Part shown: positions 1,544-63,998 of the stretch, piece by piece | Numbering within the stretch: position 1 is the first letter of the stretch | Layout: each line of letters begins with the position of its first letter | Source of the DNA: Diphasiastrum complanatum | Taxonomy: Eukaryota; Streptophyta; Lycopodiopsida; Lycopodiales; Lycopodiaceae | Assembly (NCBI GenBank): GCA_029204225.1 | Contig: CM055100.1 | Coordinates: 24,125,106-24,189,105 of the forward strand | Direction of reading: 5' to 3' | DNA: 64,000 bases | Notes under the pieces: model-generated | What the model was told of the DNA's origin: nothing | The model's input: the letters and a program-made list of their open reading frames with translations, nothing else | Databases searched by the model: none | Position numbers and translations under genes: made by a program

Positions 1544-2479
1544 TTATGAGCTTCTGACATCACAACTGTACTCGCTTATATGAATCTTCCGTGTCGTAGG
1601 ATTCAAACACCTATGTCCTATGATTCTTTTTGTCATGGCCAAAAAATACACATTTGATGGAGTTTTGCCTCCACGTTGTTTCTCTCTTCCTTTGGCAAAT
1701 ACACATAGGCCTTGCAACATAAGATTCAAAACTTTTCAATTTTAGGCTTAACACCTGTGAACGCCTCTTCAGGAGTCACATTGGGAAATGCAAGAGTGGG
1801 GCTACAATTTTGCAAGAAGGTTGTAGTGTTACAAGCTTCATACCAATAGAAGTTTCATAGATTCATCCGCTTTCTCACACTTTCTACTATAATGCGATTT
1901 TCCTTTTTGCAACTCCATTACTATGAGGAGTATGCGCTTGTGTAAGCTGCCTCTTGATGCCATTTTCCTTGCAAAAAGCTTCAAATTCATCTCATTTGTA
2001 CTCACCCCCTCTATTTTGATCTTAGCACCATGATTCATGCATCCATCTGGTTCTCCACTAAAGCCTTAAGCTATTTGAAACAAGCCAGCACGTTTGACTC
2101 CTTCAAAAAATAGATCCATGTCTTCCTAGAATAATCATCTCTGAACATCATGAAGTGATAGGCATCACCCAATGGGTATGTTGTTGTTGATTGAGCTCGT
2201 AATGTAGATGATAGAATATCACCCACATGGTATGCGCATGTTAAATTTGTTGAGTAATGAAAGAGCATATTTAGATTGACAAATGAAAACATAATCTAAA
2301 GTTCTAAGTACTTCCATGCCCAAGATGAAGTGCAAATAGCCGAGATCTACCAGCTTGAATTCCTTGTATAGATCTTGCTTGGTTTTTTCAATCCCTTCTA
2401 TGTCATCTCCACTAAGTATGATATCATCAACATAAAGTAGCAAAAGTACAATTCCTTGTGCACTAAATCTTATGTACAA
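1544..2479 (-). mobile_element. decayed Ty1/copia pol: RT and integrase fragments in swapped order
   Basis: On the minus strand, 2479-2260 encodes a copia reverse transcriptase piece with the YVDDI catalytic motif, followed by the DLG...ILGMEV block typical of copia RT. About 2250-1544 then encodes integrase: DYSRKTWIYFLKE from the core, a frameshifted stretch corresponding to the core end, and the C-terminal block with CLNPTTRKIHIS. Several frameshifts break it. In intact copia elements integrase precedes RT, but here RT comes first in the direction of reading, so the copy is rearranged or consists of two joined fragments. No LTR is seen on either side. Confidence 0.8.
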
Positions 2480-3167
2480 GGTATCATCATACTCACTAGG
2501 ACTAAATCTAATAGAGATGAGAAAGATAATAATAAGATGTTAACGAGGATTTGAAGAAGACTCCTGCTTAATAACATTTCTGCTTCATCAAAGTGATGAT
2601 ACTTCTTGATAATGTAGATAAAGCTCATACCTAAATAGAGGTGGATGCGTTATCCTGTGAGGATGCCATAATGTATTCGCTACTATCGATTCTTCATGCA
2701 TTACCACAACAATACCTTTAAAATGAGTTCATATCATTGAAGCTATAACCAGAAATATGAGACATTTGCAAACCACTATTCATCATGAACCAATGCCAAT
2801 GCTATCTATCATCGTAGTATGATAGGAAAATGTTGGGCACATAGTGGGTCCCGCCACTACAGTACTACTGGCTAAGCTTAGGCCCTCCCAAAGTACATTG
2901 TACAGGTAGAGTAATAAGTGCGAGGCAAATGTTCACAGATTCTCACAGACTCGAACAGTTCCTGAGAGGTATACACCTCAATCTTTCTAGACTTCATCCA
3001 AAGATCCAAAGACTCTAGCCGAAGCTATTAACTCAGGATGCTGTGAAGTGGCAAGAAGTTATTGAAAGCAAAGTACAACTCACAAAAGTTCTTTCCAAGA
3101 TCAAGCACCAAAAGTTCTTCAACATGCTGAACCTGTCGAAGACATTCAAGGCACCAACCATGACCTT
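2480..3167. other. non-coding; probable 3' internal part of a plus-strand LTR element
   Basis: No long frame is open. The end of the stretch runs into a purine tract and an LTR start at 3168-3177, so at least its last part is probably retroelement internal sequence on the plus strand. Nothing else is recognised. Confidence 0.35.
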
Positions 3168-11112: not shown

Positions 11113-11460
11113 TCAGCGTGGCCGTGGAGCAAACATTATTATGCAAACGCCGACCAAAGCAATACATGCACCGAGTATATCCCACACATCTGGCCTCGAC
11201 TTTTCAGCAATCCAGCCCCACAAGAGAGCAAGAACGATGAAAAAACCTCCATAGGCAGCGTAGATACGGCTGAATATCTGCCGCTGCAGTGTGGGAATGA
11301 CCCCATAGACGACTAGCAGAATGCTGCCGAGCAGCCCAAAAGCCCATTGCCATCCTTCCTTCCTCCACTTCCAAACCAGCCACCCACCTCCTATCTCGCA
11401 AACTCCAGCTACCACCAGCACCAGCAGCGCCACCACCACATCCCTCCCATCAAAGCTCAT
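11113..11460 (-). CDS. YnfA/UPF0060-family small membrane protein
   Basis: This single open frame of 115 residues starts at ATG 11460 and ends at TGA 11113-11115. YnfA (UPF0060) proteins are 105-115-residue inner-membrane proteins in bacteria with four transmembrane helices, related in fold to small multidrug resistance transporters. Seen here: helix 1 with the family CEIGG block (about residues 8-27), a WKWRKEG loop, helix 2 (about 37-56), then the hallmark RIYAAYGGFFI motif (about 66-76) leading helix 3, a short polar loop (EKSRPDVWD), and helix 4 rich in G, A and I (about 93-110). Length and order match the family. I chose ATG 11460 because the frame extends upstream only through non-ATG codons. 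It has no intron and lies between AT-rich repeat DNA and a GA-rich leader. Transport activity and substrate are not shown by sequence. A bacterial origin by transfer is possible but unproven. Confidence 0.88.
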   Translation of the reverse strand: MSFDGRDVVVALLVLVVAGVCEIGGGWLVWKWRKEGWQWAFGLLGSILLVVYGVIPTLQRQIFSRIYAAYGGFFIVLALLWGWIAEKSRPDVWDILGACIALVGVCIIMFAPRPR

Positions 11461-11612: not shown

Positions 11613-13082
11613 GCCACTTTTAGTGCGAAAGAGTTACCGTGTGAAAACGCCCATTCGAGTTTTTTCGAGACCTTTTATTGAGCTTAGTAAGGAAGCAAAG
11701 GTGATAAGACACTTATGCGCCTTGTCGCCCCCTATTTAAATCACTATGGGGGTATTACTTTACAATATATTATTATTCTAGAACAATGTGGAGCCTTTTG
11801 AACAAAAAGCTAAATCCTGGCTTCATATCACAATGACACAACTCAATTAACCAATTTAAATTCTGGCTTCATATCACAACTCAACTATATCATGATCAAG
11901 TTGGTGTTGGGCGATTTTACCTAAACTGGAACCGTCATTCGATTCTGATCCAATGGTAGGGCTCACCAAGTTCTCGACGAACCCCACGTGGTTCCACGTT
12001 GCGGTTGCATTTGCATATCTTCAATTTCTTTCAAAGCTACATTCTTGGTGGATATCACCTAGCATGCCCGGTGCCACGTCAACTATAGGCTGGTTACAAC
12101 GTACCACGCTGGTGCCAAATCATCACTAGCCTCCTCCTCAAACATTGGAAACCACATGTTTTTTTCTCGTCAAATATTGAGAGCCACATATTGTTTGGTA
12201 GCTTGGCTCCATTCACTCATAACAAAAAAAAGGCAAAGCGATTGATATGCTCATTGGATGGGAGAGTCCTCACTTTGGTGACCAAGGTTTTATATTAAGT
12301 CCTCTTGTCAGATTACATGACATTAAGTTGCACAATGCACTCAAGTTCACTCAAATGGGATATAATGCTCTTAGCTACTCTAGCGCATAAAAAAACAAAA
12401 GGTAGAAAAACAAAACATAACTTGTTTACATTAGATAAAGCACCCAAGCTAGGGCATTTCAATCCCTTTGGGTCCCCAATCTCATGTAAGGGGCCCTCAC
12501 ACCCGGAATGCATTCAGCTCAAGGGGCTTCAAGTCTTGAAACCCAACAAAAATTGATGTCTTTTGAAAAATGATGTGTAATTTTTTTGAATTATGTTTTC
12601 ATGTATGTAGGTACAAATAGCAAGGAAGACCATTTCATGTAAGATCCAAGGGGGGGTAGTCTTTGAACCTCTAGTATGATAGGTTTCAAGCTGCAATTAG
12701 ATAGTCAACTATGAAAAAAAACTTTCTTCAATGACATCCCACCAATTTCATCAAAAGGCCCCGAATGTCTCCACATGAAAAACTGTGACTTTAAGCTTCA
12801 TCAAGGAGAACATCATATAGTCCACATAACTTTGGTAAGCAGAACTACTTCAATGATTATCGAAGACTAGTCGTGATAATAGCAATGGCACACCATGCAC
12901 AAACTTCAAACATGATTACAAAAAGATAAAAGATAAAGTAAAGTTGTAAACATAAAGAGTCAATTGAAAAAGTCTAATGCTATAATGTATATTGTAATGT
13001 GTATTTGCAAGTTTCAAAGTACACTTTTCATTATCCAAATTGGTAACGGTTTTTTTTATTGATTATTTATTATTGAGAAATT
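11613..13082. other. no gene seen
   Basis: The upstream part may include the promoter of the minus-strand ynfA-like gene. A slightly GC-richer stretch near 11935-12125 holds several CCACGT and GTGCCACG words (11985-12080) without a TATA box nearby. Frames near 12305-12556 are open on both strands but look like nothing known. Confidence 0.4.
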
Positions 13083-13445
13083 ATGAGTACTAACCGTCGA
13101 CAAGTCTCTTTGTTTAACATGCCTGGATTTGAGAAATCTGCTGATGCATGTAAACATCGTCGTCGAGAGTCTTATGATGATGAGTCTTCTGAAATTGTGT
13201 CTGATGTTCCCATTGATTTGAATTCTAATGAAAAACCTGAGGATGAAATTCTGCGTATAAAAAGGGCTAACAAGGCTTGGTTTTTGAAGTGGGTTGATGA
13301 GTTCGAGTGGATAAGGTCCGATCAACAACTTGGTCACATGTTTTGTAAGTATTGTGAAAAAGCCCGTAGTCGAAGGAAATTTGGTCTTACGGGCTCGGTT
13401 AATATTCAACTTAGCCTCTATTTCAATTTTTTTGTGCAAGAGTAG
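13083..13445 (+). CDS. N-terminal exon of a transposase-type zinc-finger protein (hAT/KIAA1586-like), truncated
   Basis: ATG 13083 opens 120 residues. The first 60 are charged. Then comes NKAWFLKWVDEFEWIRSD, followed by MFCKYCEKARSRRKFGLTGS. This pattern, an aromatic helix and then CxxC with a KF..GS tail, is the N-terminal TTF/BED-like zinc finger of hAT-related transposases and of KIAA1586-type proteins derived from them. The usual histidine after the CxxC block is missing, because the frame runs into low-complexity sequence (LYFNFFVQE) and a stop before a C run at 13453. No transposase core follows. It is a broken 5' end of a DNA transposon gene. Confidence 0.6.
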   Translation: MSTNRRQVSLFNMPGFEKSADACKHRRRESYDDESSEIVSDVPIDLNSNEKPEDEILRIKRANKAWFLKWVDEFEWIRSDQQLGHMFCKYCEKARSRRKFGLTGSVNIQLSLYFNFFVQE

Positions 13446-15934: not shown

Positions 15935-16562
15935 GAGCTTCGCCCAAATCTGTCATGTCGAATTTCAAAGACAACATTTGTTTCTCATGTTTTATTAGTT
16001 TGACATTGTTACTGAAGAGAAGTGTGTCGTCCACTTACAAAGTGTAATAATAAAAGAATGTTGCACTGACTTGAAGTAGACGTTAGAGTCTGAAGTGCTT
16101 GGTTCATAGCCATGATCAATAAGAAAAGTGTTGATCCTTCGGAACCATGCTCTGGCAGATTGCTTCAAGCCGTAAAGTGCTTTATGGAGTTTACGTACAT
16201 GATTATTTTTTTCTTCGATAATTTAACATTTGGGTTGTATCATGTAGATATCTTCTTCAATAACTCCATTCAAATAAGTTGCTTGTACATCCATCTGATA
16301 TATCTCTAGATTGGCAGCAGCAGCATATGACAACAGTATGCTGATTGAAGAATGCTTAACTATCAGACTGAAACTATCAGTATAGTCGACATTCTCTATT
16401 TGTGAAAATCCTCTTGTGACATAATCTAGCTTTTCTTCGATCAATGATTCCATCCACCTTGTATTTGATTTTGAATATCCATAGCTTCCCTTCATAGCTC
16501 GAAATCAGGCTGACTAAGTGCAGCATGTCGAGATCGGGAGATGATGAGAGGCCGAAGTACAA
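15822..16562 (-). pseudogene. Ty1/copia reverse transcriptase, decayed
   Basis: Read on the minus strand from 16495: LDYVTRGFSQIENVDYTDSF, then VKHSSISILLSYAAAANLEI and DVQATYLNG, which are the fingers and first palm block of copia RT. The GLKQSARAW block follows in another frame near 16170. Then from 16034 MDDTLLFSNN (the second catalytic block, with DD) and DLGEAQYCLGIQIQRDRK follow. Frame changes separate the parts. The YVDD signature survives only as MDD. It is most similar to the fragment at 50690-50890. Confidence 0.8.
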
Positions 16563-18959: not shown

Positions 18960-21126
18960 AACTTGTACAAGTGGCTAGGAGGTGAGTTCTCCAATCTGGT
19001 TCAAAGCTTTGCCATCCAAGAAGCCGATTTCTCATTCAAAGGCAAATAGAAGACCAAGGGAGTCAAGAAGAATCAAATCAAGGAGGCCAAGGAGGAGGAT
19101 CAAGCATCAAGTTCGAAGGGAAAATGCAACAAGGACAAGACCAAGCTAAAATGCTACAAGAAGAAGAATGCACAATGAGAGAGAGAGAAAGGAAACCTTG
19201 CACATGAAGAGGATGATGATGAAGGAGACTCATCCTTGATGGCATCTACATCCTCACCAACAAGCAAAAGCAGCTCAAGAGAATCATGGTGGACGGATAG
19301 TGGGGCTAGCTCCCACATGACTTTCCAGAAGGACTATTTCTCTACTCTACTCTCTTTCAATGGTGCTAAAAAGTCTATCTTTATTGCAATTGATCAAGAT
19401 TTTAGTATAAACTGTTTAAATTGGATGTTAATGTTTCTATTAAGAGTGTCAATATGGAAAAGGAGAAGATCACTCAAGTGGAGCTATGGCACAAGACGTT
19501 AGGCCATCCTAACTTCAATTCAATGGAGATCATGTGTGAAAAGGAGCTAGACCTCAGCCTCCCATTAATTTGTCAAAGTGTGATAAGTGATGTGAGGCTT
19601 GCAGTCTCTCAAAGACTGAAAAGCAATCTTTCCCAAGGTCTTCCACTCCTCTGGAGGTTAACATTTAGATGTGCATAGCTTCTCTCATATATCTAATGGA
19701 GGTGCAAAAGTGTATGTATCATTTATAGATGATCATTCGAGGTATGCTTGGATCTATCTTTTGTCTATTAAGAGTATGATGTTTGATTCATTTGTGAAGT
19801 TCAAAGCTCTAGTTGAAAATCAACTTAATACTAGGATCAAAGTATTAAGATGTGATAATGGTGGAGAGACATCTCCAATAATATGATAGAGTTTTGTGAA
19901 TCCAATGACATTAAGAGGAGTTAACATGTCCTTATACACCTCAACAAAATGGAGTGGCCTAGAGGAAAAATAGATCTCTTTGTGAGTGCTCTAAGTCCTT
20001 AGGCTAGATGCCTCTCTTCCAAAACCATTTTTGGGTGAAGCCATTACATTTGCTAATTTTCTATGTAATAGGTTGCCAAACAAACCCATTGGAGGGAGCT
20101 CTATATGGTAAGAGGCCAAATCTCAAAGATTGAAAATATTTGTATCTCCTTGCTATGTTCACCAATATTTGGAAACAAGAAAAAAGGAAGATGTTATATT
20201 AATCAAAGGTATATTTGTTGGGTATAGTCAATCTAGAAAGGGATATAGAGTCTTCAATCCCATCACTTATAAAATCATAGTGCCAGAGTAGGGATGTTTT
20301 ATTTGATGAAGGAGATGTTTCTCAAGTGATTGAAATTGCAACTAATCATCTTTATGTCAAGGATATTGCTAGGATTGAGGAGGAGCAACCAAATGATGAA
20401 GATCTTGAGGATCCACCTCAAGACCCTAGAGCTCCAAGGAGGTCTTCAAGAGCAAGGGTTGAGCCTTCAAGGCTCACATATGTTGGCAAAGGTTATCAAA
20501 GGGAAGGCACTCAACCATTCACTTCTTACACTCTTTTAACTTCAATGCTTGATGAACCAACTTGCTATGAAGATGCTTGTAAGTCACAAAGTTGGATAGA
20601 TTCCATGCAAGTGGAGTATAATGCTCTCGTGCAAAATCAAACTTGGGATCTTGCTGATCTTCCTCAAGGAAAGAAGCCACTTGGTTGAAAGTAGGTGTAT
20701 AGATTGAAGTATTATCAAGATGGGTCAATGAGTAAGTATAAGGCAAGGCTTGTGGCAAAAGGATTCCTTCAAACAAAAGTCATAGATTATGATGAAACTT
20801 TTGCTCTTGTGGCTAAGCTAGTAACTATAAGATTGATCATATCTCTTGCTACTACTTTCAATTGAGTTGTTTATCAAACTGATGCCTTCCTCAATGGCTA
20901 CTTGGAGGAAGAGATTTACATGAGGCAATCTGAGGGCTTCATCAAGAAGAGATTTGAAGACAAGGTGTAATTTTGCAAAGTAGTTTTTATGGACTCAAGC
21001 AAGCACCTAGAGCTTGGTACTCTAGGCTCAATATCTTCCTAAACTCTATCAACTTTGTTATGAGCTCTTATGCTCCTTCTTTGTATATAAAATTTAATGA
21101 TGGCAAGATCATTTTGCTTGTTTGTA
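18960..21126 (+). mobile_element. Ty1/copia pol remnant: protease, integrase, RT, cut by a gypsy LTR
   Basis: In order: a lysine-rich gag end (19040-19200), the protease block WWTDSGASSHMTFQKDYF (about 19285, catalytic D in DSGA), the pre-integrase LWHKTLGHPNFNSM (about 19480; the frame starting 19421), the integrase core with SFIDDHSRYAWIYLL and LRCDNGGET (19671-19886), the integrase C-terminal GYSQSRKGYRVFNP (about 20220), the linker with RAPRRSSRARVEPSRL, and RT from 20580 (DSMQVEYNALVQNQTWDL) through KARLVAKGF, QTDAFLNGYLEEEIYM and a frameshifted GLKQ block. Stops and frameshifts are frequent. Similarity ends at IILLVCM, just before the RT catalytic YVDD, where an unrelated LTR starts. 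Confidence 0.9.
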
Positions 21127-34859: not shown

Positions 34860-35857
34860 AGAAGCGGAGCTGATAGATGAACAGGTCCTGCAACATATGG
34901 ATCCTGAATGTTTTGGTGGTTCTGGACCAAGCAGAGCAGACAAAGGCAAAGGCATAGCTGTCCCAGGAGGATCTCCCAGAAGGTCGACAAGACCACAAAG
35001 AGCGCCAACAAGATATGTGCCAGGCAGTTCAGCTTCCACATCAGAAGAGTTCTGCAGATTCAATGGCGAACCATAGACTGTCGAGCAAGCGATTGACAGT
35101 CCAGAGAAGGACAGATGGATCCAAGCCATAAACAAAGAGATGGAGTCTATGAGGAAGAACCAGGTATGGACGTTGGAGCCATTACCACATAAGCGCAAGA
35201 CTGTCAAATGCAAATGGGTTTTCAAGCTCAAATACGGACCAGATGGAAACATCACGAAATACAAGACAAGACTGGTAGTGAAAGGTTTCTCTCAGAGATA
35301 TGGTATTGACTACTCTGAAACCTTCTCTCCCGTCGTCAAACATTCGTCCCTACATCTGTTATTTGCATATGCAGCAGCTTATGACCTCAAGATCCACATT
35401 GTGGATGAGAAGACAGCCTTCTTGCATGGCGAATTGGATGAAGAGGTCTACGTGGATCAACCCCCAGGATACGTCTCGAATTCACTTCCTGACTATGCAT
35501 GCAAAATGCACAGAAGTATCTACGGTTTGAAACAATCAGCCCAACAATGGTACAAGAAAAAAGATCAAGTCCTGAAATCATTAGGATTTATTGGCTGATT
35601 CTAATGTATATGCCAGAGTTACAGATGGGCAGATCATCATAGTGGCTGTATATGTGGACGACACTCTGATACTTTGCAGGAGTGAGCAGCTAATTGCTGA
35701 AGTAAAGGCAGACATCTCGAAACATTTCAAGATAGTGGATCTGGGAGAAGCGAGGTGTTACCTAGGCTTACAAATTGAAAGGAACTACGAGGGAGGTAAG
35801 TTATACCTTCACCAGTCCAGATACACCCAGAAGATCCTCGCGATAGATGTTAGCTGA
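34860..35857 (+). pseudogene. Ty1/copia integrase-RT linker and reverse transcriptase
   Basis: The linker holds RRSTRPQRAPTRYVPGSS (about 34990). A stop falls at about 35076. RT starts with EKDRWIQAINKEMESMRKNQ and runs openly to 35598: KCKWVFKLKYGPDGNITKYK, VVKGFSQRYGIDYSETFSPV, DEKTAFLHGELDEEVYV and IYGLKQSAQQWYKK. A frame change with a small deletion at about 35590 leads to VAVYVDDTLILC (catalytic YVDD) and DLGEARCYLGLQIERN. Similarity stops at 35857, so the RNase H is missing. The part 35140-35598 is the best preserved RT in the window. Confidence 0.9.
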
Positions 35858-40160: not shown

Positions 40161-40175
40161 CAGTTGCAAGCAGGG

Positions 40176-43100
40176 ATGGAGTCAGTCCGACGATCCAAAA
40201 GGCAAAGGGTGGCAGTAGATTATGCTCGCTTGGATGAATCCGGATTTGATGACTGCGTTCGCGTTCAGTATAAGCAATTGGCAAAGGCGGTGCTCAAATG
40301 GCCCCGATTTTATCCTGAGCAAGCTGGTGGAATTATAGATGATCACCATGTTGTTGCGATTGTTGCTGCTGAGCGATTGATTGAGCACGCTAGTGAGACG
40401 GGATTCCGCACCCCATGCATTGTCAGGGCATCCGAGGAGTCGGCCGCAGTTCTGGGGATCAGGTGCGAATTTGCCATGCTTTGTCTGAAGTTGTGGTCTT
40501 GTGGCTTATTTTTTGGCTGAAAATTTGGAAATTATTATGCTCTGTTTTTTGGAATCGTTTTAGATTGCAGATCTAGAATTGGTGTCTTATGTCTTTTTAT
40601 AGCCTGCGGTGATAAAGCTCAATTATCAAGACAATCAGTGAAGATATCTAAAGTTAGTGTTAGTACTATTTACGGAATCATGTTCTGGCCCATCTATTCT
40701 CTCTCTCTCTCTCTCTCACAAGGAGGTGAGCATGTTCCGAACAGTCAGACTTTGATTCTTGAACAGAAGCGCAAGCTATACTCTGGGAGTATCCCTGAGC
40801 TTGGAGCTGTGTGCGTGCACAACACAAGCTTTCTAGTAGGTGTAGAGACACCACGGGGATGCACAATAGCATGAGGTTTGTCCTTTGCAACATTCTACAA
40901 GACAATCTGGGGCTAATTGCTGCCAAGCAGCACAAAATTTTGCAACAGAATGAAAAATCATGGAACCAATAGCTCACATCCTCATCCAGATTATGGTGAA
41001 AATAACCGCTTGGATCAACCAACGGAACTGACGAATGAGAGTTTCCATATTTGATTCAACCTATCTAGTTTTCAACAAGATTGCAATTGAAAAGTTTATG
41101 GGCTTTGGAAGGTTCAGGCTTGAAGATCTTAGATCTATAGCTTTAGAAATTCCCAAATATTTTTCATGGAATCCTTGCGTTTGCATAGAATATCCGTTTT
41201 ATGCCTGGCATACTGTTTGCCTAAACAAGATGTTAGTAGCCGATTTGAGGAGTTGAAAAACCAGAAAATTTTGACTGCAAGGGTCCCATTTGAAATTCTG
41301 GCGAGTATCTAGTCCCATCACAAGGTTTATATTTTTTCACCAAGATCAATGACGTTCATATGTGATTTCTGAAATGATCCAGTTTTGAAGTTTTTTCCAC
41401 TCTTTGGTCTACGTTTGCATTTTTTATAAAAACTCTTTCTGCATGTAAGTCATATCCTTTCAATTTGACCGATAAACCATGGGGTTGTTGACAACAAAAA
41501 TGAGCATGTTGCATTTGTAGATTCATTGCGACTGTCCTATTTCAAAGATGGGAGGATATGTCAGCATTGGGTCTACATAAGAGAATCCAGATTTTCTTGA
41601 AACCTACTAGGCAACTTATACTTGGGTACCATTTAGACCATGAGACGGCAAGTGATACTTGCTTGATAAGACTCGTTTTATTTACGTTAATGGTTTGGCA
41701 TTAGATTTTCTCTTTTCAAGTTTTATTACCATCATAGAGCAAGTTGATGTATTACACATATGCTTCAGAGGCCTGCTTTCTACTTGTTATTTCAAAAACT
41801 TGTTTCATCCTTGATTATTACGTAGGCTTTCTAGTGTGGTGAAAAGTCAGGTGATAGATATTCCATTTCTCTTGAGAACTGATCCTAATAGGATACATCC
41901 ACGCAATTATGTTTGACTGTTATAGTAATTGCCTTAAACTGCAAAGCTAAACTATTGCTTGGAATGGCAAAGTTATTTTCTCTTTAGTAGTTTCATTTGA
42001 AGGAGAAGACTTACAAATAAGTAACAATATTGTCTTGTTCATCCAATTGCAGATTACCACAAGGTAAAATGACCATCGAATCTCTTGGGAAATATGTTGG
42101 CATGGACAGGGAAATTGACACAATAGATGTCTCTACTCAGGTGATAAGTTGTTGCATTAAGATTTTGTTTTTGCTCCTTAATTTGAACGTTTAAGCCCTC
42201 CAATTACCAATCAATCTAGAAGCACTGTTTGTGACCACTGACCACAGTTGTTCTGCCCTTCAATTGCTACTAGTACTGCTTTCTGCAAGTGGTTAATACT
42301 TGCCAGACCATGTTATCAATGATAATGATTTGGCAAAGTTGATGTTACAAGGTTACCCTAGTATTCAATAGTTTAGCATTTGAATATTCCCAGCCTCAGA
42401 AAGTTTCCTGATGCCTTGAGCAAGTATCTCCCCCAGTTTGATTTCCAACACTGTTCAGCTCTTTATACATTTTGCAGTTATAGTCGTAGAAACTTATTTG
42501 ATTATTGTTAAGTCTAGCACTTACCCTGTTCAGTACATCTAGTTTATGATCCTAGCATCGTATATATTAAATCTTTCTAGGACTTTGTTTGGTGTATTTC
42601 ATGTGGATGATTCGCCCATGTGTGGTGTGGTGTTAGAGGGTTCTTGGTGTGGGATTGATCAGCCAAGCTCAAACCCTGCCCACACATGGCCAATATCCAA
42701 GGAAAAATAAATAATTTGATTTGCATGCTTCTACGCAAATGCAGTCAGAAGGACCTGCATATACTATGGAAGAATGGGTCAAATACTTTTCCACACCAAG
42801 TCCCAAAAAACCTTTGCTTAATGTGGTTTCCCTGGATCTTGCTTCCACGAAACTTCAGAACCTGGTAAGTTTTGCTTTAAGGATGTATACAGTTGTCCAA
42901 AGGAGCATGTGAGCTGGTTTCAAGTTCAGAGTTAGATTGGGTTGAAGCTGTATATTCTTATAATTTCTTTCTTACTGTTCAAGATGGACTATCTCTGATA
43001 GATCTATTGAAATTCAATTACCTTGATGGTGGCTCAGATCAGTGCTCCTTCAGTAGTAAAGCAACTGGATCTAGTAGAGAAAGTTTGGCCTCGGAGTCAA

Positions 43101-46100
43101 CTTCCTATACCTAAGGTACTATAATGAAGTTTAGATTCCTTTTACACTGATGCACCTATTATGACGGTAGACTCACTTACCTCCACAAAACTAAAGGCGA
43201 GAGATATTGTAATCTGAATCAATCAATACATTACGAAATTTTGGAGTATTGCTTTGCTCTTGTAAGTGTACTACATTTTTGTAATTTCGAGGACTAAAAT
43301 TCACCAATTTTCAGATCTTCAAGATTCAAATTGTAGACCTTACCATTCAGATTGTAGGTCTATTTTTCAGCCTTAAGAATATCCCCCAGCTAGTTACAGA
43401 GCTGTGGACGAAAAAGTGAAGCTACCGCATCTTACAGTTTGTTTGAAAAGGTTCTGGATGAAGAATTGATAGCATGTTGTGCCATCTTGTTTTTTATAGA
43501 TTTTTATCAAGTCCAAGGATTCGGTCTGTTATGAAACTGTTTTTCTTTTATGTGCAGAAGTGGAAATTCACTCCAAACCTTGATGCTAAGAAAGATGATG
43601 TTAAACGCTAGACCACATCCTAGGAGCCTGTCATGAGATTTTTGTGCAATAAAGGAACGGTTTAATGATCTACCTCTATTGTGTAACTTGGCTTTCCTTT
43701 CAACTGGCAGGTCCAGCTATATGCGATTATGAGCGTCGCTGGCTGCTATATGGATTTTCATCTTGACTTTGGAGGTTCCTCAGTCTGGTATCATGTGCTC
43801 AGGTTTGGAAGTTCGCAGAAAGTGTTGTAGTTAGTTTTGTGCCTATATCTAGCTTGAGTTTGCACTTAACAATTCTACTTTCTCTTGTTGTTTGAAAACG
43901 CCACGAAATGTTACTGATTCTTACATTGGTAGAGATGTCTGAATGTGTTAAAAGGGAGACTGTGCGTATGTCTTTTTCACTATTAGTATAAATAATATCT
44001 TTCAACATTAAAATAATGTCCTGTTCTCTACGGTATATCTATCAAGGTCTCAATGAACTACATGAATTCGCAGTATATAGACATCGTCGTTGCAGACTGA
44101 GCTTGTTGCATTTGTTTTGCTGACAGCGGACGAAAGGTCTTTCTACTAGTACCACCTACAAAAGAAAACCTTATGGCTTTTGAGGAATGGGCTTCATCCG
44201 ATAAACAAGTATGTTTGAAACAAATATATTCTTTGTAACTGGATTACTGTTTGCCCGCTGTAGCAGCTACTCCGTGGCTGATGTTTGTAGCTATTTGGAG
44301 AATGCTCAGTTAGTTTGAAACGTCTGTCTGAATCCTTTTGCCTCTAATAATCACAAAGCGGGAGAAGCTTCATGAGTACATGATGATCAGGATGTTATAC
44401 AGGACTATGTTCCGAATGTTATTCTAGATTTTTAGAGCTTTGCAAATACCTTTGATTTTTTTTCCCTAGCTCTCTATTCAAGCTATGATCTTCAATGTCA
44501 ATATATGAGACAGTTTATTTTTGACAATGTAAATTAGATTGGCACAGGAATTCCCGGCTCCCTGACCTATAAATATCTAAAGTTTGAATTCAGTGCTTTT
44601 CAACAAAAAGCTGTATTGACAATCCCTCGACTCTTAATGATCATCTCATAAATTGAAAGAATCAATCACGGATACGAAACTCCTTTGATTATTAGCTGCT
44701 GTTTCAGAATAGTCTTTCTTGTAAGATGTCTCGGAGGACTACGATATGCTGAATATTTGACGCCTTTGCCACCACTTCCTCTTGTCATAGTCGTACGCTC
44801 TTCGTTATCAAGGATTTAAGGGTTTAGGGTTCTCAAGGATTTCGTCACCGTGTCACGTTGTGTCAACTTTGGATTGCTTTTACATGGCACACCAGTGACC
44901 ATTAATACACCTTTAAAGAAAGAATCTGACGTGAAGTAGCAGAGGCCACAAACATGAGTGGAGCTTACTTGAAAGTTGCTATTAAAAACATAGTAGTGTT
45001 TAGAAGTTGCGTATCATGTAACCTATGTAAATGGAACTTCTTTCACAGTTTCTGGACGCTCGTTCAGGTGTAAGTGCTTTTTCAGTTGTTCAGATCTTTC
45101 GCTTTTGGATTAACTGAGTTCAATTTTTTGTAAAGCTCCTCATCTGTTGCTTTGTATCGTTTACTTGGAAATACAAAAGCTAACAAAATCTAGACAAGGT
45201 GTACCTAGAACTGTGGCTTTTGAATTATTAATGCTCGTTTAGTCATTATCTGCAGAACACGAATTTTGGCCGCATAAAGTGCCCCGTAGAAAAGTTATGC
45301 CAGAACCCTTCATTTACAACATGTACCTGAGATTTCAGTCTATTCGTAAAAGGTCGTTCAAGCTAACCACATCTTCTTAGACTCCATAAGCAGGCCGCCC
45401 TTGTCTGGTTTCATGTCGGCTTGCAACCTGTATTTTCTGGGGGAAGAATAATGGAGATTTGAAATGACTTCATAAAATTTGTTGCTTCCTCGGCTTTTTT
45501 AAGTTTCAAAAGGAACATTTCATCTTTTGTCAGGCTAGGCTGTCTACACAAAGACTGGGCTATTGTGATATGCGAGGAGAGTTCGTACTGGAAATTTGAT
45601 ATGCAATTTCGAATGTAAATTTTGAACTTAGAAAAGTCGAACTACATGCTGTAATAATGTGCTTTATCCGGTGCAGGGAACTGTTTTCTTCGCAGAGCGA
45701 GCAAGCGGATGTCAAAAAGTAGAGCTCACAGCAGGAGACACGTTACTTTTGTGAGTCATGTCTGCGAGTATTAGAAAAAAAAATTTAGGTAGACCCAGAT
45801 TCATTGATTTCAACCAAAATGTACTTTGGGACGGAGATTGAATCTGCAGCCTTTCGCTGTAATTTTTAACATGGTGCATCCTCTGTTGGAACCATCTGTT
45901 CTTCGAAGGTCTTTGTTTTTAGAATCCAAATTTCATTGTCTACATATGTTGAGTTGTTATCATCTGGTCTAAATATATGCAGACCGGGAGGTTGGCCACA
46001 TTGCGTTGTCACGCCCATAGACTCTCTAGTGATTGGCGGAAACTTTTTAACAGGCAGTAATTTGTCTCTTCAGCTTGAAGTATATCCACAAAATTTCTTC

Positions 46101-47980
46101 TTTTTCTTGAAGCAAGCAGAAAGCTTATAAATTTTTTCTTCTAGGACAAGCCATCCATTCACCAACATGAACTGTAACTTTCTGCAAGTAAGAAGTTGAG
46201 AAAGGTACAGTCGCTTTTGTGATAGAGATTGTATTAGAACCTAGGTTTTCGAGGCTTCACTTCTCCTTGACATGTTTTGGTCGACACTTGGCAAATGGAG
46301 GAAAGGTTAAGAGTCAGAGCAAAGTTCCGTTTTCCACTCTATAGACAACTCATGTGGTACTTCTTGATCTTTACAGTTCTGGTTTTTAGAGCGACTTAAA
46401 TTTCGTTTTTCCTTTCACTCTTTTCTTTTCTGGCACCTGCAAGTTACAGGAACATCGAATTTTATACGGATGGCCTTCGGCTGTAACGTCTAACCTAAAT
46501 TATTAGTTCAGTTCTAGAAGTTCGAACTATATGTTACTCCAAAAAGTAACAGTTCTGAGGAAAGGTGAGCTCGCAGGCACACTGCTTTGCATTACCATAA
46601 ATTGCTGGAGGAAGCCGTGGGCGAAGGTGCCGAGAAGCTGAGCAAATGGGAGAAAGAGGGCCTTCGAAGTCTTTCGAGATGCCTCAGTTTGTGGTTGCAA
46701 CAGGTTTTTACCTCCTTGGGTGTCTAGGGTGCACCTGATGCATCCTTTCATTTTCGGCCGTCGGTCACAGATTGGCTGGCCTTTATTGCTATGCCTTAAA
46801 AAGTCTCTGATGGTCTAAACGTTTTCACTTAGCACGTCATCCAAGCAAGCCCAGAAGCTTCTAAGATTTAAGATCCTGATGTGTTGATGACAGTCTAAAG
46901 ATGCAGGGGAGGTGCCAAAACAGATCTCGAATCCTGAGAGCCTTGTCGAAGGGATCAGAGATTACTTGAAGGTATATCAATTCAAAGGTTTATGAAATTT
47001 CACTTCTAGCTTTCTTGGCCGTGAAAATCGAAAATAAAACTCTCTTTAATATTGCCTTGCTTACAATATGTTACAGAAAGATACTGCAGGATCAAAGAGA
47101 ACTGGATCGACAAGAGTACGTATAATGGTAAGAAAACTCGATATCGATATAGAGCATGCCTAGGATATAAATTTCTTATCAGAAACTGGAGAAGGCAAGC
47201 CAGTATCTGATGCATGTTCCATTTGATCTGTTGGCCTCACCTAAGTTTTTGCTGTAAAGAAGGGCTCTTGTTTAAGCGACCTTGATAATGATCGAGTAGC
47301 TGAAACTTCATATACGGTGTTTCTGGATGAAAAACAGCTAAGAAAAACGCATTCCGCAAACAGCAGAGCCGCAGAAAGTGTATGTTCTGAACTTTCAAGC
47401 AGATGGGAGGTCTACTTAGTGGTAAAGCATGCACATTATTAGCATCAAAAGGTTGCCAAGCACATGTCTGCTGTGTCAGCTTGTTTGGGCACTGAAATTG
47501 CAGGTGAAAAGGTTACTCGACAACAATGACAAGGATTTTGATGTCAAGGGAGAAACTGAGAGCGATTCAGATGAGGAGAATGTGATGAATGAGCATAGTT
47601 GGTCTAGCAGACAACCAAAACCAGCTTCAACAACTTTCAAGGTATCGGGCTTTCACAATATACATCCTTTTCGCCGTTTGTCTTCAATGACAATAAAAGT
47701 TTCAACTGTATTCATGTATCCAGTGAGGCTTTTTTGTTCTAGCCGAATCTGAGCTCCATGGTACTTGCTGCAGGAAGTAAAGCACTCCAAGACTGCTTTG
47801 AGAACATCAGCATCTGTGCATGTGTCACACAGTTCAACCAAAAAGCCTGCCAAGTCCAACACCACTGTTAGAGATCGCTTACTGAAAAAACTTGGTTTTG
47901 ATCCCAAACTCCCATTGGTAAGACCAAAGTTAAAGTCTAAAAAGCTAGATGATGAAGCAGCTCAGCAAACAGACCAGTGA
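40176..47980 (+). CDS. KDM2/JHDM1-like JmjC histone lysine demethylase, 17 exons, 555 residues
   Basis: Exons: 40176-40462, 42053-42140, 42745-42864, 43038-43115, 43558-43599, 43711-43802, 44127-44208, 45049-45069, 45677-45750, 45983-46079, 46301-46356, 46577-46703, 46894-46971, 47077-47115, 47338-47379, 47504-47641, 47774-47980. All introns are GT-AG and all phases agree without a stop. The start ATG is the first in frame ([12 protein letters not shown]). Family blocks in order: [16 protein letters not shown] (about 109-124), [42 protein letters not shown], then the JmjC core [20 protein letters not shown] with [28 protein letters not shown], and [11 protein letters not shown] with IGGNFL. 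Fe(II) ligands are H222, D224 and H301; K239 is a likely 2-oxoglutarate contact. [11 protein letters not shown] follows, as in KDM2/KDM7. The C-terminus (about 415-555) is charged and ends in a [12 protein letters not shown] block. No PHD, CXXC or F-box is seen, unlike animal KDM2. Nuclear demethylation of histone lysine (H3K36 in the family) is inferred. The weakest junctions are around 46079-46301. Confidence 0.9.
42610..42698 (+). mobile_element. SINE-like fragment in an intron of the KDM2-like gene
   Basis: GTGTTAGAGGGTTCTTGGTG, then GGGATTGATCAGCCAAGCTC and AAACCCTGCCCACACATGG parallels the stretch at 39190-39290. It lies in the second intron, 46 bases before exon 3. A B-box-like word is present but weak. 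Confidence 0.4.
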
Positions 47981-54562: not shown

Positions 54563-56831
54563 GGCGAATGGCTTTCTCCATAATTTTTTTTGCTTTTTCC
54601 TTAAAAAATCTTGTTTTTTTTCAAAAAATGTAGAACTGAAACTTCTTACGATTTTGTAAAGAATAACATCAATGGATGAATGAAATTTATGATGAATCAG
54701 ATATTATTTCTAAGAAAAATCTAAAAAAAAAAAATTCATAATAAAAAACAATTGGAGGAAGGTCCATCCGCCACAGCAGATGGACCCCCCTCAAAATATT
54801 CCAATGTAAACTTTTTTTTAAAGAAAAATTTATTATTTTTCAAACAGACTTTATTTCTAAGAAAAAACATTAAAAATCAATTTATGAAAAAACAAATTTA
54901 GATTAGGGTCCATCCGCCCCCATGAAAATTTTTCAAATTCCAATTTTCTTCAAATTTTTTTTTATTATTTCTCAATCAGACTATGTAGATAGTTGTCTCT
55001 TAGATAAAGTTTGATAGTTGGAATAAACTGGGAAGAGAGAAAGATATATAGAGAGAGAGGTGGGGGGGAGGGAGGAGTAAGGACTAAGTTTGAGGCCCCA
55101 CTTATCTTTCCAAAGGGGAATCCTACCATAAATAATACATGGTCCCTTAGACCAATTATTTTATGGCTAAGATGATCTAGTGAGAAGATCACTTGAGAAT
55201 CTCTTAAAGATGATCAATGTCATCCAAAATGTGGTTTAAAAAAGAAAACAAAAAGAATTGTAGAGAAAGCCATCCGCTGCGGCGGATGGCTTTCTCCACA
55301 AATATATTTATTTTTTCTTTAAGAAAATATTGTTTTTTTTTTCAAAAAATGTAGTACTAAAATTTTTTACCATTTTTTAAAGGGCAAACATCAGTGGATG
55401 AATGAAATTTATGAAAAATCAGATCTTTATTTTTAACAAAAATCTTTTAAAAAAAATTCTAAGAAAAAAAAATTGGAGAGGGTTCATCCACCGCAGCGGA
55501 TGGACCCCCCTAATCAAATTTCAATATCCACTTTTTTTTTTAAAAGAAATTTATTATTTCTCAAACAGACTTTATTTCTGAAAAAATCTTTAAGAAAATT
55601 TTGAAAAAAAAAAATTGGAGGGGGGGCCCATCCACTGCGGCGGATGGACCTTTCCCCCCCCTAAAAAAATTTCAATATCCAATTTCTTTTATTATTTCCA
55701 TCCGCCGCAGCGAATGGAGAGGCCAACAGAAATTTTAAAATCCAACTAAAAAAAATATTCAAGACACCCTACTTATGTTCCCTTTAGTCACTTTCCAAGA
55801 TTGAGTATGGGATAATTGGTATTCCACGTGTCAGCACCATGTGCATTTCTTATTATAAGCAAAAAAAAAAAATTTGTGGCCTTTAAATGAGAACCCATTT
55901 AAAAAAAAATTGGCTACAATTGTTGAGAAAAACACTATTTTAAGTTTTTATATATAGCTTGAAAACATTCCATGCTTAATTAAATGCTTATGGGATAAAT
56001 ATTTGAACTTAATGGTCTCTCCTCATTCCTTCTTATAACTATATTGCCGAAACCTTGAAACAATATATTGCCAAAACTTAAAACAAACTATATTGCCAAA
56101 AAACTAAAAACAAACTAAAAACTAAAATAACAAAATATAATAAAAAGAGAGAAAGATATATAGAGAGAGAGGTGGGGGGGAGGGAGGAGTAAGGACTAAG
56201 TTTGAGGCCCCACTTATCTTTCCAAAGGGGAATCCTACCATAAATAATACATGGTCCCTTAGACCAATTATTTTATGGCTAAGATGATCTAGTGAGAAGA
56301 TCACTTGAGAATCTCTTAAAGATGGTCAATGTCATCCAAAATGTGGTTTAAAAAAAAAAACAAAAAGAATTGTAGAAAAAGCCATCCGCTGCGGCGGATG
56401 GCTTTCTCCACAAATATATTTATTTTTTCTTTAAGAAAATATTGTTTTTTTTTTTCAAAAAATGTAGTACTAAAATTTTTTACCATTTTTTAAAGGGCAA
56501 ACATCAGTGGATGAATGAAATTTATGAAAAATCAGATCTTTATTTTTAAGAAAAATCTTTTAAAAAAAATTCTAAGAAAAAAAAATTGGAGAGGGTTCAT
56601 CCACCGCAGCGGATGGACCCCCCTAATCAAATTTCAATATCCACTTTTTTTTTTTAAAAAAAATTATTATTTCTCAAACAGACTTTATTTCTGAAAAAAT
56701 CTTTAAGAAAATTTTGAAAAAAAAAAATTGGAGGGGGAGCCCATCCACTGAGGCGGATGGACCTCCCCCCCCCCCAAAAAAAAAATTTCAATATCCAATT
56801 TCTTTTATTATTTCCATCCGCCGCAGTGAAT
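54421..56831. repeat. cluster of GC-rich palindromes (core CCATCCGC...GCGGATGG) in AT-rich DNA
   Basis: Palindromes at 54421-54444 (11-bp perfect arms), 54761-54786, 55263-55296 (15-bp perfect arms around TGCG), 55482-55506, 55627-55650 and 55697-55718, with second copies of the last four at +1112 (about 56375-56408, 56594-56618, 56739-56762, 56809-56830). Half sites lie near 54565 and 54907. Each is flanked by A runs on the left and T or C runs on the right. All carry the core TCCATCCGC or its near variant. I know of no family with this pattern. No coding frame lies between them. Confidence 0.9.
54487..54561. repeat. (GA)n microsatellite
   Basis: About 75 bases of GA with one AAAG interruption near 54545. 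It lies inside the palindrome cluster. Confidence 0.97.
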
Positions 56832-57257
56832 GGAGAGGCCAACAGAAATTTTAAAATCCAACTAACAAAAATATTCAAGACACCCTACTTATGTTCCCTT
56901 TAGTCACTTTCCAAGATTGAGTATGGGATAATTGGTATTCCACGTGTCAGCACCATGTGCATTTCTTATTCTAAACAAAAAAATAAAATTTGTGGCCTTT
57001 AAATGAGAACCCATTTAAAAAAAAATTGGCTACAATTGTTGAGAAAAACACTATTTTAAGTTTTTATATATAGCTTGAAAACATTCCATGCTTAATTAAA
57101 TGCTTATGAGATAAATATTTGAACTTAATGGTCTCTCCTCATTCCTTCTTATAACTATATTGCCGAAACCTTGAAACAATATATTGCCAAAACTTAAAAC
57201 AAACTATATTGCCAAAAAACTAAAAACAAACTAAAAACTAAAATAACAAAACATAAT
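55034..57257. repeat. tandem duplication, 1112 bp x 2
   Basis: Copy 1 runs from AGAGAGAAAGATATATAGAG at 55034 to about 56145. Copy 2 starts at 56146 and ends near 57257 (ACAAAACATAATAAAA against ACAAAATATAATAAAA). Differences are few single bases and run-length changes. Each copy carries four of the palindromes. Confidence 0.97.
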
Positions 57258-57986
57258 AAAAATAAAATTATAGAAAACTCAAAGTTAAAAATAAATAATG
57301 AAAATTAAAAAATGAACAACAAAAATTCAAAAAATTATAAATAAATCTAAAAATTAAAATTTGAATAATGAAAAATCATAAAACTATAAAACAAATGTAA
57401 ATATTAAAAAATAAATATAAAAATTAGAAAACAACTATACATATCGTAATTTTTTTAATAAAAAATCAAACAAACTATAAACTAAATCTAAATATAGATA
57501 TAAAAATAAAAAAACAAACTAAAAAATCTAAAAATGAATAAGAAAAAATCAAAAAACTATAACATGAATCTGGAAATTAAAAAATGCATAATAAAAAGCC
57601 AAGAAAATATACAATGAATCTGAAAATTAAAAAAAAAAATAGACTATAGAATAAATTTAAATATATTAAAAAATCTCAAAATAAAATAAAGCCAATATAG
57701 AAATTGCAAAATGAATATTAAAAAATAAAAAAAACTATATAATAAAGCTATATACTCCTCATATCTTCATTTATTCTACATTATTAAAGTAAAAAAATAA
57801 GTAAAAGACATTAATATATTGTCAAATCCTTGAAAATGCAAAAAACTAAAAAACAACCTAAAAATTAAAAAAAAAAACAAAACATAATAAAATTTAAAAA
57901 TAAAACAAACTCAAAATTAAAAATAAATAATTTTAAAAATAAATAACAAAATGTCAAAAACCTATAATTTAAAATTGTCTTTGCAC
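57258..57986. other. low-complexity A-rich stretch
   Basis: Almost only A and T, built of irregular repeats of AAAATAAA/AACTATAAA words. No frame is open for long. It separates the duplication from the DUF7869-type region. Confidence 0.9.
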
Positions 57987-57994
57987 TATAAAAA
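57987..57994 (+). promoter_or_regulatory. possible TATA box upstream of the DUF7869-type region
   Basis: TATAAAAA stands 93 bases before the ATG at 58080, after 700 bases of A-rich DNA. In such AT-rich sequence a chance match is likely. Confidence 0.25.
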
Positions 57995-58079
57995 GAGAAA
58001 ACATGTATCGTTTATTGAACCATTAAGTGAGTGATTTACATATTATTCTAGTGGTTAAAAAAAGAGCAACATCAAGAAA

Positions 58080-60602
58080 ATGTTGGCCCGCCAGCTTGGT
58101 GGTTCAAAAAGCATCCAAAAAATGTCGACAAGATCAGTATATAATTCAAATTATGTAAGTGGTGTAGAAGATGTCAAAAACAGATCCGCCGACTACAATC
58201 CAACAAAGTCATTGACAAGTAACTATAACTCATATATTTTGACAATAATCGAAGATATTTCTCATAGTCGTAATATGTCAAGATCAGTGTATAACTCAGA
58301 TATCTTAACAAATGTCGAGAATGTGGTTACTCGTAATACATCTGCATCAGTATACAACTCGGATATTCTTATAGGTGTGGAAGATGTTGGAGAGGCTGTT
58401 GATAACAATAAAAATAAAAAAACGTCATTTTCAAATCAGCATTCAAATAAAATGTACACCGAATGCGTCAATTTTAGCAAGTGCAAATGCATTCAACTCC
58501 CGTAATTCAGATTTTTTGAAATTCGATTTCGATGAACATGATTACACAAGCAACATATTACATTATGCTACAAGTTTCATGGAAATACCGGCACATTCAG
58601 ACAACATGGACACTCTTCAAAAGGGAGCCCTAATGCGTGGGATTTCGGAAAAGCATGTGTTGCCTCAACCACATCTTCAACATAAATCAAAAGATGGCGT
58701 TGTTATTTGCAAACATCATCTCCCACTCGGCATACATAAACGTGATGTCTTCAAAACTATAAACACACATCTTAAAGATACGTGTATTCCTGAAGTTTCA
58801 AGATTTACTCTACAAGATGTGGAGACAAGAGTTTGGACATGTCAAGACTCTAACAAGACAAAGAATGTCCAAATGCAAAACATGTGACGACCTTAAAAAT
58901 GCAATAGAGACAACTTCTGACGCTAGGATGCATGATCGCTATATTGGATTGAGAGGTAGTCATCTACATCATGTTTTCTATTCCAGAAAATTGTATGCAT
59001 ATCGGAAAGAAAAGTCAAGATCCCATCCTGAGCAGTCTTTGTGTCTTATCATTGATGAAATGGATCAAAATAAAACAACATTATCCCGTTTCAATAAGAC
59101 TCCTCCCAGATTAGAGAGAATCATTTTTTGAAAACACATGTTTGTGGGGTATTGGTTCATGAATTCAAGTTGCTCAGTGATGTTTGGATCGATACCTTGC
59201 ATGCTCATGATAGCAATCAAGTTGCCAGATCAATAATGCGAGCAATAAGAAAGGTACAAGCATCACGTGATAACTTACCTCCGATCTTACGTATTCAAAC
59301 TGACAATTGTTGGAGAAAAAACAAGAACAAATTTATTTTTGGTCTTTGTTGTATGTTAGTGGCACATAACATCTTCCAAAAGGTAGAAATGGGATTTCTT
59401 TTGGTTGGCCACACACATGAAGACATAGATCAGGTTTTCAGTGTCATATCCAAGGCTTTGAAGTCCAAATCAGTTCACACAATGCTAGATATGCTAGCAC
59501 GAATTGGTGAAAAGATAGGTGGTGGTCGTATCGAAAACATTGAAGTAGAAATACTGAACGAATGGTAGACTGGAAACAATTTATAGATTTTTGTATTGCT
59601 CAAGAAAATGACGGCTTAGAAGGACACACCAATCTCACTCTTTTTGTTTTCAAATGGTGAATGGTGATCCAACCATGCAATGGAAATACTATTCTAATGA
59701 TGGAGACAACGCATGGAGTGAACCTTTCAAATTGTTGCAGCGTGTACCTTCAAAAGATGAAGCCATCTTTCTAGCATCCACGAAGGATCTGGATCCAGAT
59801 GAAATAAAAGGAATAATGTCTTTTATTGATTATTTGTGGTTCATGAGCCAGAGGTTTTCAAAATACAAAAGATCGCAATAATGTATGTATAGTGAAAACC
59901 ACAAAACTTGTCGAATATCTTTCCAAAAAACAAATGTTATTAGGATCAATGTATAGCCAAGAGGCTTTTTGGCCACAATCCTTGCCAACCACTTTTGATT
60001 CATCTGTATCAATTTCGATCAATGAGGTCAAAATGGATGTAGAGTTATTACTCTGGAGGTTTTGTGGGCGAAAAGCTGATGCACCTCTGATTGAATTCAT
60101 CTCACGTAAAAAAGTTGTGTTGGACAAGTTCGCCCCAGATGAAGATGTTGTCGAGAGTTCCATACCTATTTGGTTGACAAAAGTTGTCGAAGTGAAAAAA
60201 CACTCAAAAGGCTTGGCCACAAAGTTTAAAGCATTATGGTATGAACCAAAATCTAATCAACGGCGTAGAAACCAGAGACAAGATGACAATTCGGAGCTGC
60301 ACAAAAATTGCTTAGAAAAAGAATGGATTCTGAACAACGACGGACCACAATATATGGATGTAGATACAATTGTTCATGCATGGAAATCAAAGGCGAAAAA
60401 AAAAATTAAAGCACACGGCTATACTGTGGAAAAATCAATATCTATTCCGAAAATATCAGTGGCACACATTAAAGAATATCTGTCCAAATTATTCGATGAA
60501 TGTGTAGTTGATATTATGAGTAGAGTTTATGATTGTAGTTGTAAAGTCCTTGTTACAATCTCTGTCGCCATAATTATTGGACTTGTAATGTATTTAATTT
60601 AG
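58080..60602 (+). pseudogene. DUF7869-type (putative transposon-derived) protein, frameshifted
   Basis: Six open blocks in changing frames (58080-58505, 58375-58887, 58811-59131, 59122-59568, 59565-59650 and 59654-59881 then 59892-60602) read as one protein. The N-terminus has four imperfect repeats around SVYNSDILxxVEDV (about residues 19-105). Next come the CPxxSxFY region, SKCKTCDDL (CxxC), LCLIIDEMDQNKTTL, WIDTLHAHDSNQVARSIMRA, LRIQTDNCWRKNKNKFIFGL and FLLVGHTHEDIDQVFSVISK. The last three blocks are the hallmark of the DUF7869 family, found in animal and plant proteins and thought to be transposon-related. The aspartates in IIDEMDQ, QTDNC and HEDIDQ could form an RNase H-like triad (my inference). 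A lysine-rich part and a hydrophobic tail (SVAIIIGLVMYLI) close it. Frame changes are near 58440, 58805, 59122, 59563, 59650 and 59885. No introns explain them, so it is decayed or misread. Confidence 0.8.
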
Positions 60603-63002: not shown

Positions 63003-63998
63003 TCAAGCGAAGGAAGAAAAGCATATATGAATGTGTTGTAGTAGATACAACATGAAATATGCCCCTCTTTGCCATGTAAGGTGGTCCATAAAGACTCGGC
63101 CATGCATCTTGAAGATCTTCTTGAAATCATATGAAGAAGAAACCTCCTCACACATTGGCCCCATCATAACTTGAATACCTTCAAAAAGGATAACTTGTGA
63201 TGCTTCTTGAGAAGCCTTGATTTCGGCCACTTCCAAGATTGAATCTTCATGCAATATGACATCTCTATTCACCATCACATTTGAAATAGAGAGTGTAAAG
63301 ACACTAAAGGCCTCCTTGATGGATGAGTATCCAATCATGATCCATGAGCTTGGATCATCCTTCCTTCTTGTTTCCAAGGGAATATATGCAAAGCAAGCAC
63401 TACCAAGTTCACTAAGGTGATCAACCTTAGGCTTCATCTCGAATAAAACTTCATATGGTGCTATTCCTTCAAGAGCTCCAATACTCCTCAAAGCTTTGAT
63501 CTTCAATGAGAATTTCTCCTCAACATATGCTTTGAATAATAAGGAATAATCATACACCATAATACTTGAAGAGAGAAGATATGTGCATCTTGTGTAATCC
63601 TCCTCTTTTGAAATATTGGAAATATAAGAAACATCAAGAGAGTTTGCACTCTCACTTGGATCAAATTTGTAGATGCCTTCAAATCTTGATCCATATGCAA
63701 GGATCTCACCATCCTTCTTAATCACACAATTGTCAATATGGAAATTGACATCAAAGCCACTATCAAGAAGTTGGCCAACACTTAAGATGTTCTTTGTAAG
63801 CTTTGGGACAAAAAGAACATTGTTGAGAAAGAGATCTTTAGAAGATGCAAGCTTCAAGGGAATAATCCCTACTCCTTCAATATTGCACTCATGCTTACTT
63901 GCAAAGTATATGGTCTTCTTGACTCCATCATAAGGCATAATAGATGAAAAAAAGTGCTTGGAGCCACACATATGCGAAGATGCTCCACTATCAATATA
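63003..63998 (-). mobile_element. Ty1/copia protease and integrase C-terminus, in-frame deletion, runs off the window
   Basis: Read on the minus strand from the window edge: YIDSGASSHMCGSKHFFSS (protease, catalytic D), then the block FLNNVLFVPKLTKNILSVGQ and DNCVIKKDGEILAYGSR typical of the protease-integrase junction. After a spacer (SLLFKAYVEEKFSLKIKALR) the frame jumps directly to PYEVLFEMKPKVDHLSELGS and WIMIGYSSIKEAFSVF, which are integrase C-terminal blocks. The pre-integrase LWHxxLGH and the whole catalytic core with its D,D,E residues are absent, yet about 330 codons stay open. RT is not readable after 63003. Confidence 0.85.

Follow-up and report, generated by a model that had tools for sequence, protein, structure and literature searches.

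Does a plant-like genome encode a JmjC protein of the KDM2/KDM7 type, although KDM2, like KDM4 and KDM6, has been described as animal specific (Zhou and Ma 2008, PMC2579438)? The question is raised by a spliced gene at 40176-47980 on the forward strand of the window, by which we mean the whole 64-kb stretch analysed here (contig CM055100.1 of assembly GCA_029204225.1, positions 24,125,106 to 24,189,105). Our rebuilt model, which bears out the spliced gene proposed in a previous sequence-only reading, runs from an ATG to a TGA at 47980 in 14 exons and encodes a product of 529 amino acids, hereafter the window protein (Table 1). Membership of this product in the KDM2/KDM7 clade, unlike the plant JmjC proteins compared, is strongly supported by the comparisons below, and what appears to be new is the unexpected place, a plant-like genome, in which a member of this known clade is found.

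The family placement was addressed by similarity search, profile search, domain content and phylogeny, all of which agree with the earlier proposal of a KDM2/KDM7-type JmjC protein, distinct from the plant ones compared. First, a search of the window protein against 177,635 distinct sequences of the PDB (E ≤ 10) returned 19 matches, comprising 14 KDM2/KDM7 chains (9e-74 to 1.3e-45), four JMJD6 chains at 0.05 and an unrelated kinase at 0.19. The best E-values were obtained with KDM2A (9e-74, which excludes a chance origin), KDM7A (2.3e-71), PHF8 (1.5e-69), PHF2 (7.1e-55) and nematode KDM7 (1.3e-45). JMJ13, JMJ14, rice Os05g0196500 (which we take to be JMJ703), KDM4 and KDM5 are present in the library and gave no match at this threshold; KDM3 and plant JmjC-only chains were also absent from the matches, their presence in the library not having been checked. 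A comparable gap was seen with PHF8 as query (KDM2A at 3.3e-87, JMJD6 at 4.6e-06). Second, when KDM2A, PHF8, PHF2 and the window protein were combined into a profile, the 14 clade chains came first, followed by JMJD6 at 6.6e-07 and by rows at chance level.

At the domain level, Pfam recognised the Jumonji helical domain (JHD, PF17811) at residues 300-391 (1.4e-8; 35.5 bits, cut-off 23.4), together with Cupin_8, JmjC and a weak Cupin_6; the helical domain is carried by all four members of the alignment (window protein, KDM2A, PHF8 and PHF2). The sequence-only reading had missed this domain, but its report that the CXXC, PHD and F-box parts are lacking held up, as neither these nor LRR parts were found in the window protein (Pfam, E ≤ 1). 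The JmjC score of 24.9 bits lies only narrowly above the cut-off of 24.0, and such genes may therefore be overlooked in standard family searches. The motifs YVG.DR.IDVIDV, VWP, YxxMSVxxxYxDFHxDFGG, WYH, GW.H, GGNFL and FRFP are present in the order claimed for them.

Lastly, a maximum-likelihood tree was calculated from eight sequences, namely the window protein, KDM2A, PHF8 and PHF2 together with JMJ13, JMJ14, JMJ703 and KDM4D, the latter four entering as JmjC cores of 149-163 residues; fungal sequences, KDM5, JMJD6, KDM3 and plant JmjC-only proteins were not part of it. The window protein fell with KDM2A, PHF8 and PHF2 on one side of a branch at 100/100, with JMJ13, JMJ14, JMJ703 and KDM4D on the other. 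Core identity of the window protein is 46.9% with KDM2A, 43.3% with PHF8 and 34.0% with PHF2, compared with 54.0% between KDM2A and PHF8. Viral and prokaryote contigs were scanned by pattern twice with the core protein and twice with the alignment. The scans brought up 7, 92, 24 and 42 stretches, none of which was confirmed; these collections hold few eukaryotes, and the scans therefore say little about plants.

The reading frame is intact over all 529 codons of the 14-exon model, without frameshift or stop. Translation would start at the first in-frame ATG (40176), the open frame of exon 1 opening at 40161, right after a stop. Exons have a GC content of 45.5%, introns one of 37.8%; 12 of the 13 introns are GT-AG, the remaining one being AT-AC. 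For independent placement of the joins we used spliced protein-to-DNA alignment with our own program and KDM2A and PHF8 as references. The program accepted GT donors, GC donors within G|GCA, and ATATCC donors provided that the acceptor was AC; beyond these dinucleotides it scored splice sites in no other way. The alignments cover introns up to 9, and each of introns 1-8 was matched exactly by at least one of the two references. With KDM2A, intron 2 was shifted and two doubtful filler mini-exons were placed in a variable loop that has 13 more residues in KDM2A; with PHF8, intron 1 was split and a different join was used for intron 9. With this alternative join (46382-46610) the JHD scores 34.9 bits, against 37.8 for the join of the model, which is therefore only slightly better. 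An additional in-frame exon at 47338-47421 is possible. By eye, a C-terminal segment in exon 14 (47774-47980, forward strand) resembles a short conserved motif.

The 17 exons and 555 codons of the sequence-only reading were not recovered. That model contained two extra cassettes, of 14 and 7 codons, whose addition to ours yields 550 residues, still short of 555. Its iron ligands H222/D224/H301 are real as an H/D/H set, but their numbering applies only with the two cassettes in place and otherwise becomes H208/D210/H280. We rejected both cassettes. Their joint inclusion lowers the local alignment score with KDM2A from 637 to 611, with PHF8 from 579 to 548 and with PHF2 from 477 to 442; both break aligned stretches that are otherwise gap-free (PKVQ and KQG), and both are left out by the spliced alignment with either reference. 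Short cassettes of this kind (AG..GT, 12-150 bases, in frame and without a stop) are frequent: intron 4 has 28 of them and intron 6 has 50. Speaking against the rejection, the Pfam Cupin_8 score is 34.3 bits with the cassettes and 32.0 without (a gain of 2.3), while that of JmjC is 27.4 both ways.

The join between LQLE and EERLRV is best explained by the AT-AC intron 8 (46082-46287), which, judged by its signals, is a strong candidate for a U12-type intron. The U12 consensus comprises a donor ATATCCTT, a branch site TCCTTAAC and an AC acceptor (PMC2831892); against it, intron 8 agrees at 6 of 8 donor positions (ATATCCAC) and 7 of 8 positions of a branch-like element (TCCTTGAC), and its acceptor is AC. 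This join costs no aligned residue, compared with five for the best GT-AG path, and was preferred in both spliced runs (500 versus 480 and 423 versus 404) despite a heavier penalty. A GT-AG intron at 46080-46300 is possible but was rejected: five aligned residues are lost, the JHD scores 24.9 bits instead of 37.8, and the alignment score with KDM2A falls to 615 (637 with the AT-AC join). The sequence-only reading reported no AT-AC intron; between GGNFL and FRFP, 46082-46287 is the best-fitting join. On the forward strand of the whole window ATATCC occurs 22 times, and ATATCC/TCCTTRAC pairs within 600 bases occur four times, one of them being intron 8; the reverse strand of the window holds no such pair.

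What might this protein do? The residue alignment shows that it retains the Fe(II) ligands H208, D210 and H280 and the 2-oxoglutarate lysine K225, together with N151 and Y218, two further active-site residues. On balance we think it probable that the product of this gene is a KDM2/KDM7-clade JmjC protein cut to its catalytic core, most likely a histone H3 lysine demethylase with H3K36me1/2 as its likeliest substrate, stemming from an old eukaryotic copy that was lost from flowering plants. Such a protein would consist of a basic N-terminus, a pre-JmjC segment, the JmjC domain, the Jumonji helical domain and a charged tail, and would catalyse Fe(II)/2-oxoglutarate-dependent demethylation of a histone H3 lysine. 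H3K36me1/2 would be the first choice of substrate because KDM2A is the nearest relative, with KDM7-type marks second, and H3K36 demethylase activity is plausible from the sequence. As the known targeting parts were not found, recruitment to chromatin would be supplied by the basic or charged ends, or by a partner protein.

Several points weigh against this proposal. First, the tree leaves the branching order within the KDM2A/PHF8/PHF2/window protein group unordered. The KDM2/JHDM1 label given to the gene from sequence is slightly favoured over KDM7 by identity (to KDM2A rather than PHF8) but is not separated from it by the tree, and KDM7 proteins act on other lysines (H3K9, K27 and H4K20) than the H3K36me1/2 of KDM2. 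Second, the residue at position 205, which precedes the first His by three, is Met in the window protein and Thr in all three animal members aligned (KDM2A, PHF8 and PHF2); if Thr is a trait of the clade, a view resting on these three, the window protein departs from it. Met205 stands at a 2-oxoglutarate contact, and cofactor binding may therefore be weakened. The demethylase had been called intact, which holds for the iron ligands but passes over this replacement. Lastly, the absence of fungal sequences from the tree leaves room for transfer from a fungus. A single base change from a Thr codon would be enough to explain Met205 in this one sequence.

The substitution at residue 205 brings in an alternative that we regard as unlikely, if far from negligible, in which the protein keeps the KDM2/KDM7 fold, has lost or weakened catalysis and serves as a chromatin scaffold. 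PHF2, a clade member with Tyr at the position of the second His ligand, would be a precedent for a scaffold, and fission-yeast Epe1 is another possible non-catalytic member of the clade. In mouse cells, KDM2 demethylase activity was mostly dispensable for gene expression (PMC6753492). Against a loss of catalysis, all three iron ligands and K225 are kept. Moreover, Thr/Phe185 and the lysine are given as the two 2-oxoglutarate-binding residues in PMC9029850, with the non-polar Phe in the plant KDM4 and KDM5 groups, so that Met may be tolerated as well. The same change could also be taken as a sign of a degenerating pseudogene; with no frameshift or stop in 529 codons, and with 12 of 13 introns GT-AG and the other AT-AC with U12-like signals, we consider this highly improbable.

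Another explanation would be horizontal transfer or assembly contamination, that is, a fungal or animal KDM2/JHDM1 gene lying in or beside a plant genome. In its favour are the description of KDM2 as animal specific (PMC2579438) and the lack of a KDM2 branch among the plant genes of PMC9029850. However, the window protein is nearly equidistant from KDM2A and PHF8 and less similar to them than they are to each other, and was therefore not copied recently from an animal near the sources of these two proteins. In addition, the gene has 13 introns, one of them AT-AC, and shares its 64 kb with copia fragments and a UPF0060 gene. We judge transfer or contamination to be improbable, and return to the proposal of a minimal, probably active member of the clade.

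The published surveys define how far such a gene would be unexpected. The subfamily tree of PMC2579438 is built on human, Arabidopsis and rice, with 14 moss JmjC genes collected in its Table 1, and which plant proteins demethylate H3K36 was not clear to its authors in 2008. In PMC9029850, 332 JmjC genes from 21 green plants are sorted into five branches that do not include KDM2, and the queries of PMC10178440 were Arabidopsis genes. Passages of PMC6599366 and PMC10538959 contain no statement on plant KDM2. Among the literature matches listed (titles and abstract starts, with most subscription journals outside their scope) there is no description of a plant KDM2/KDM7 gene, though database entries may well exist; yeast Jhd1 and H3K36me2 are the subject of one cited reference title.

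Taken with these surveys, the gene suggests that some plants kept, or regained, a demethylase type that flowering plants seem to lack. More tentatively, and at somewhat less than even chances, we postulate that a non-flowering land plant or streptophyte has kept, since the ancestor shared with animals, a minimal KDM2/KDM7 protein of JmjC and helical domains, its gene bearing an AT-AC intron; that this protein, its 2-oxoglutarate pocket altered, is dedicated to erasing H3K36me1/2; and that flowering plants lost it while other JmjC groups took over. H3K36 activity has, since 2008, been assigned to other plant JmjC proteins. If plants do have a KDM2/KDM7 gene, the absence of the type in plants becomes a loss in some of them, and the removal of H3K36 methylation outside flowering plants could be tested directly.

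Table 1. Exons, candidate U12-type intron and rejected cassettes of the KDM2/KDM7-type gene (window positions)
Feature	Position	Strand	Support
Exon 1; start codon, basic N-terminus, start of pre-JmjC region	40176..40462	+	First ATG after in-frame stop
Exon 2	42053..42140	+	PHF8 spliced run exact at 3' end only
Exon 3	42745..42864	+	Exact in PHF8 spliced run
Exon 4; VEKVWPR..PIPK	43038..43115	+	Exact in PHF8 run; KDM2A run placed filler mini-exons
Extra cassette of earlier model, 14 codons; rejected	43558..43599	+	Alignment scores, spliced alignment
Exon 5; Fe ligands H208 and D210, Met205 at 2-oxoglutarate-contact position	43711..43802	+	Model, spliced alignment, residue alignment
Exon 6; 2-oxoglutarate lysine K225	44127..44208	+	Model, spliced alignment, residue alignment
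Extra cassette of earlier model, 7 codons; rejected	45049..45069	+	Alignment scores, spliced alignment
Exon 7	45677..45750	+	Model, spliced alignment
Exon 8; Fe ligand H280	45983..46081	+	Model, spliced alignment, residue alignment
Intron 8; AT-AC, candidate U12-type, donor ATATCCAC, branch-like TCCTTGAC, acceptor ..GACAC	46082..46287	+	
Exon 9; start of Jumonji helical domain	46288..46356	+	Model, Pfam
Exon 10; helical domain continued	46577..46703	+	PHF8 spliced run preferred other intron 9 join, 46382-46610
Exon 11; end of helical domain	46894..46971	+	Model, Pfam
Exon 12; basic tail	47077..47127	+	Splice signals and frame only
Exon 13; acidic tail	47504..47641	+	Splice signals and frame only
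Exon 14; basic C-terminus and stop codon	47774..47980	+	Splice signals and frame only

Elsewhere in the window, a single-exon open reading frame (ORF) at 11113-11460 on the reverse strand encodes a small membrane protein of the UPF0060/YnfA type (Pfam 3.2e-36, profile positions 2-106 of 107). A table of PMC3111387 gives UPF0060 a count of one for a moss, for each of two green algae and for poplar, and of zero for maize, rice, grape and spruce. Copia reverse transcriptase fragments lie at 2222-2539 (-), 16226-16504 (-) and 35077-35595 (+), and further copia Pol pieces at 19179-19499 (+) and 63006-63998 (-); these Ty1/copia fragments derive from several elements on both strands. Together with the UPF0060 neighbour they fit, without proving, a non-seed plant or alga as the source of the DNA.

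Other features include a DUF7869 domain at 59098-59565 (+; 2.2e-46) within overlapping open frames at 58059-60602, probably part of an uncharacterised mobile element, and a C17orf113-type zinc finger ORF at 13077-13442 (+; 4e-8), presumably BED-like and likely a transposase remnant. The segment 55300-57927 is very AT-rich and dense in short tandem repeats (GC 24% in 56001-58000), and tandem arrays with the same repeat units, at 56032-56117 and 57148-57233, lie about 1.1 kb apart. The AT-rich region at 26-30 kb was considered as a plastid insert and rejected: three ORFs in it have no Pfam match (E ≤ 0.1), and one of them, searched against the PDB, gave only weak chance matches. Neither tRNA genes nor Rfam families at gathering scores were found in the window.

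How does the window protein compare with known systems? JMJ13, JMJ14 and JMJ703 have in common with it the JmjC fold and the H..D/E..H ligands, but show no match at E ≤ 10 and lie on the opposite side of the 100/100 branch. The KDM7 group is closer, as all four of its members (KDM7A, PHF8, PHF2 and nematode KDM7) match by sequence, and PHF8 and PHF2 share both the side of that branch and the helical domain with the window protein; in contrast to animal KDM7, no PHD finger was found before its JmjC domain (Pfam, E ≤ 1). Fungal Jhd1 is a non-animal H3K36 demethylase of the same clade with few extra domains. Nearest by sequence is KDM2A/FBXL11 (JHDM1A, PDB 4qwn): compared with it, the window protein has no detected CXXC, PHD, F-box or LRR parts, is 13 residues shorter before the PKVQ motif and carries Met205 for Thr, but the two have the same iron ligands and the same order of a JmjC domain followed by the helical domain.

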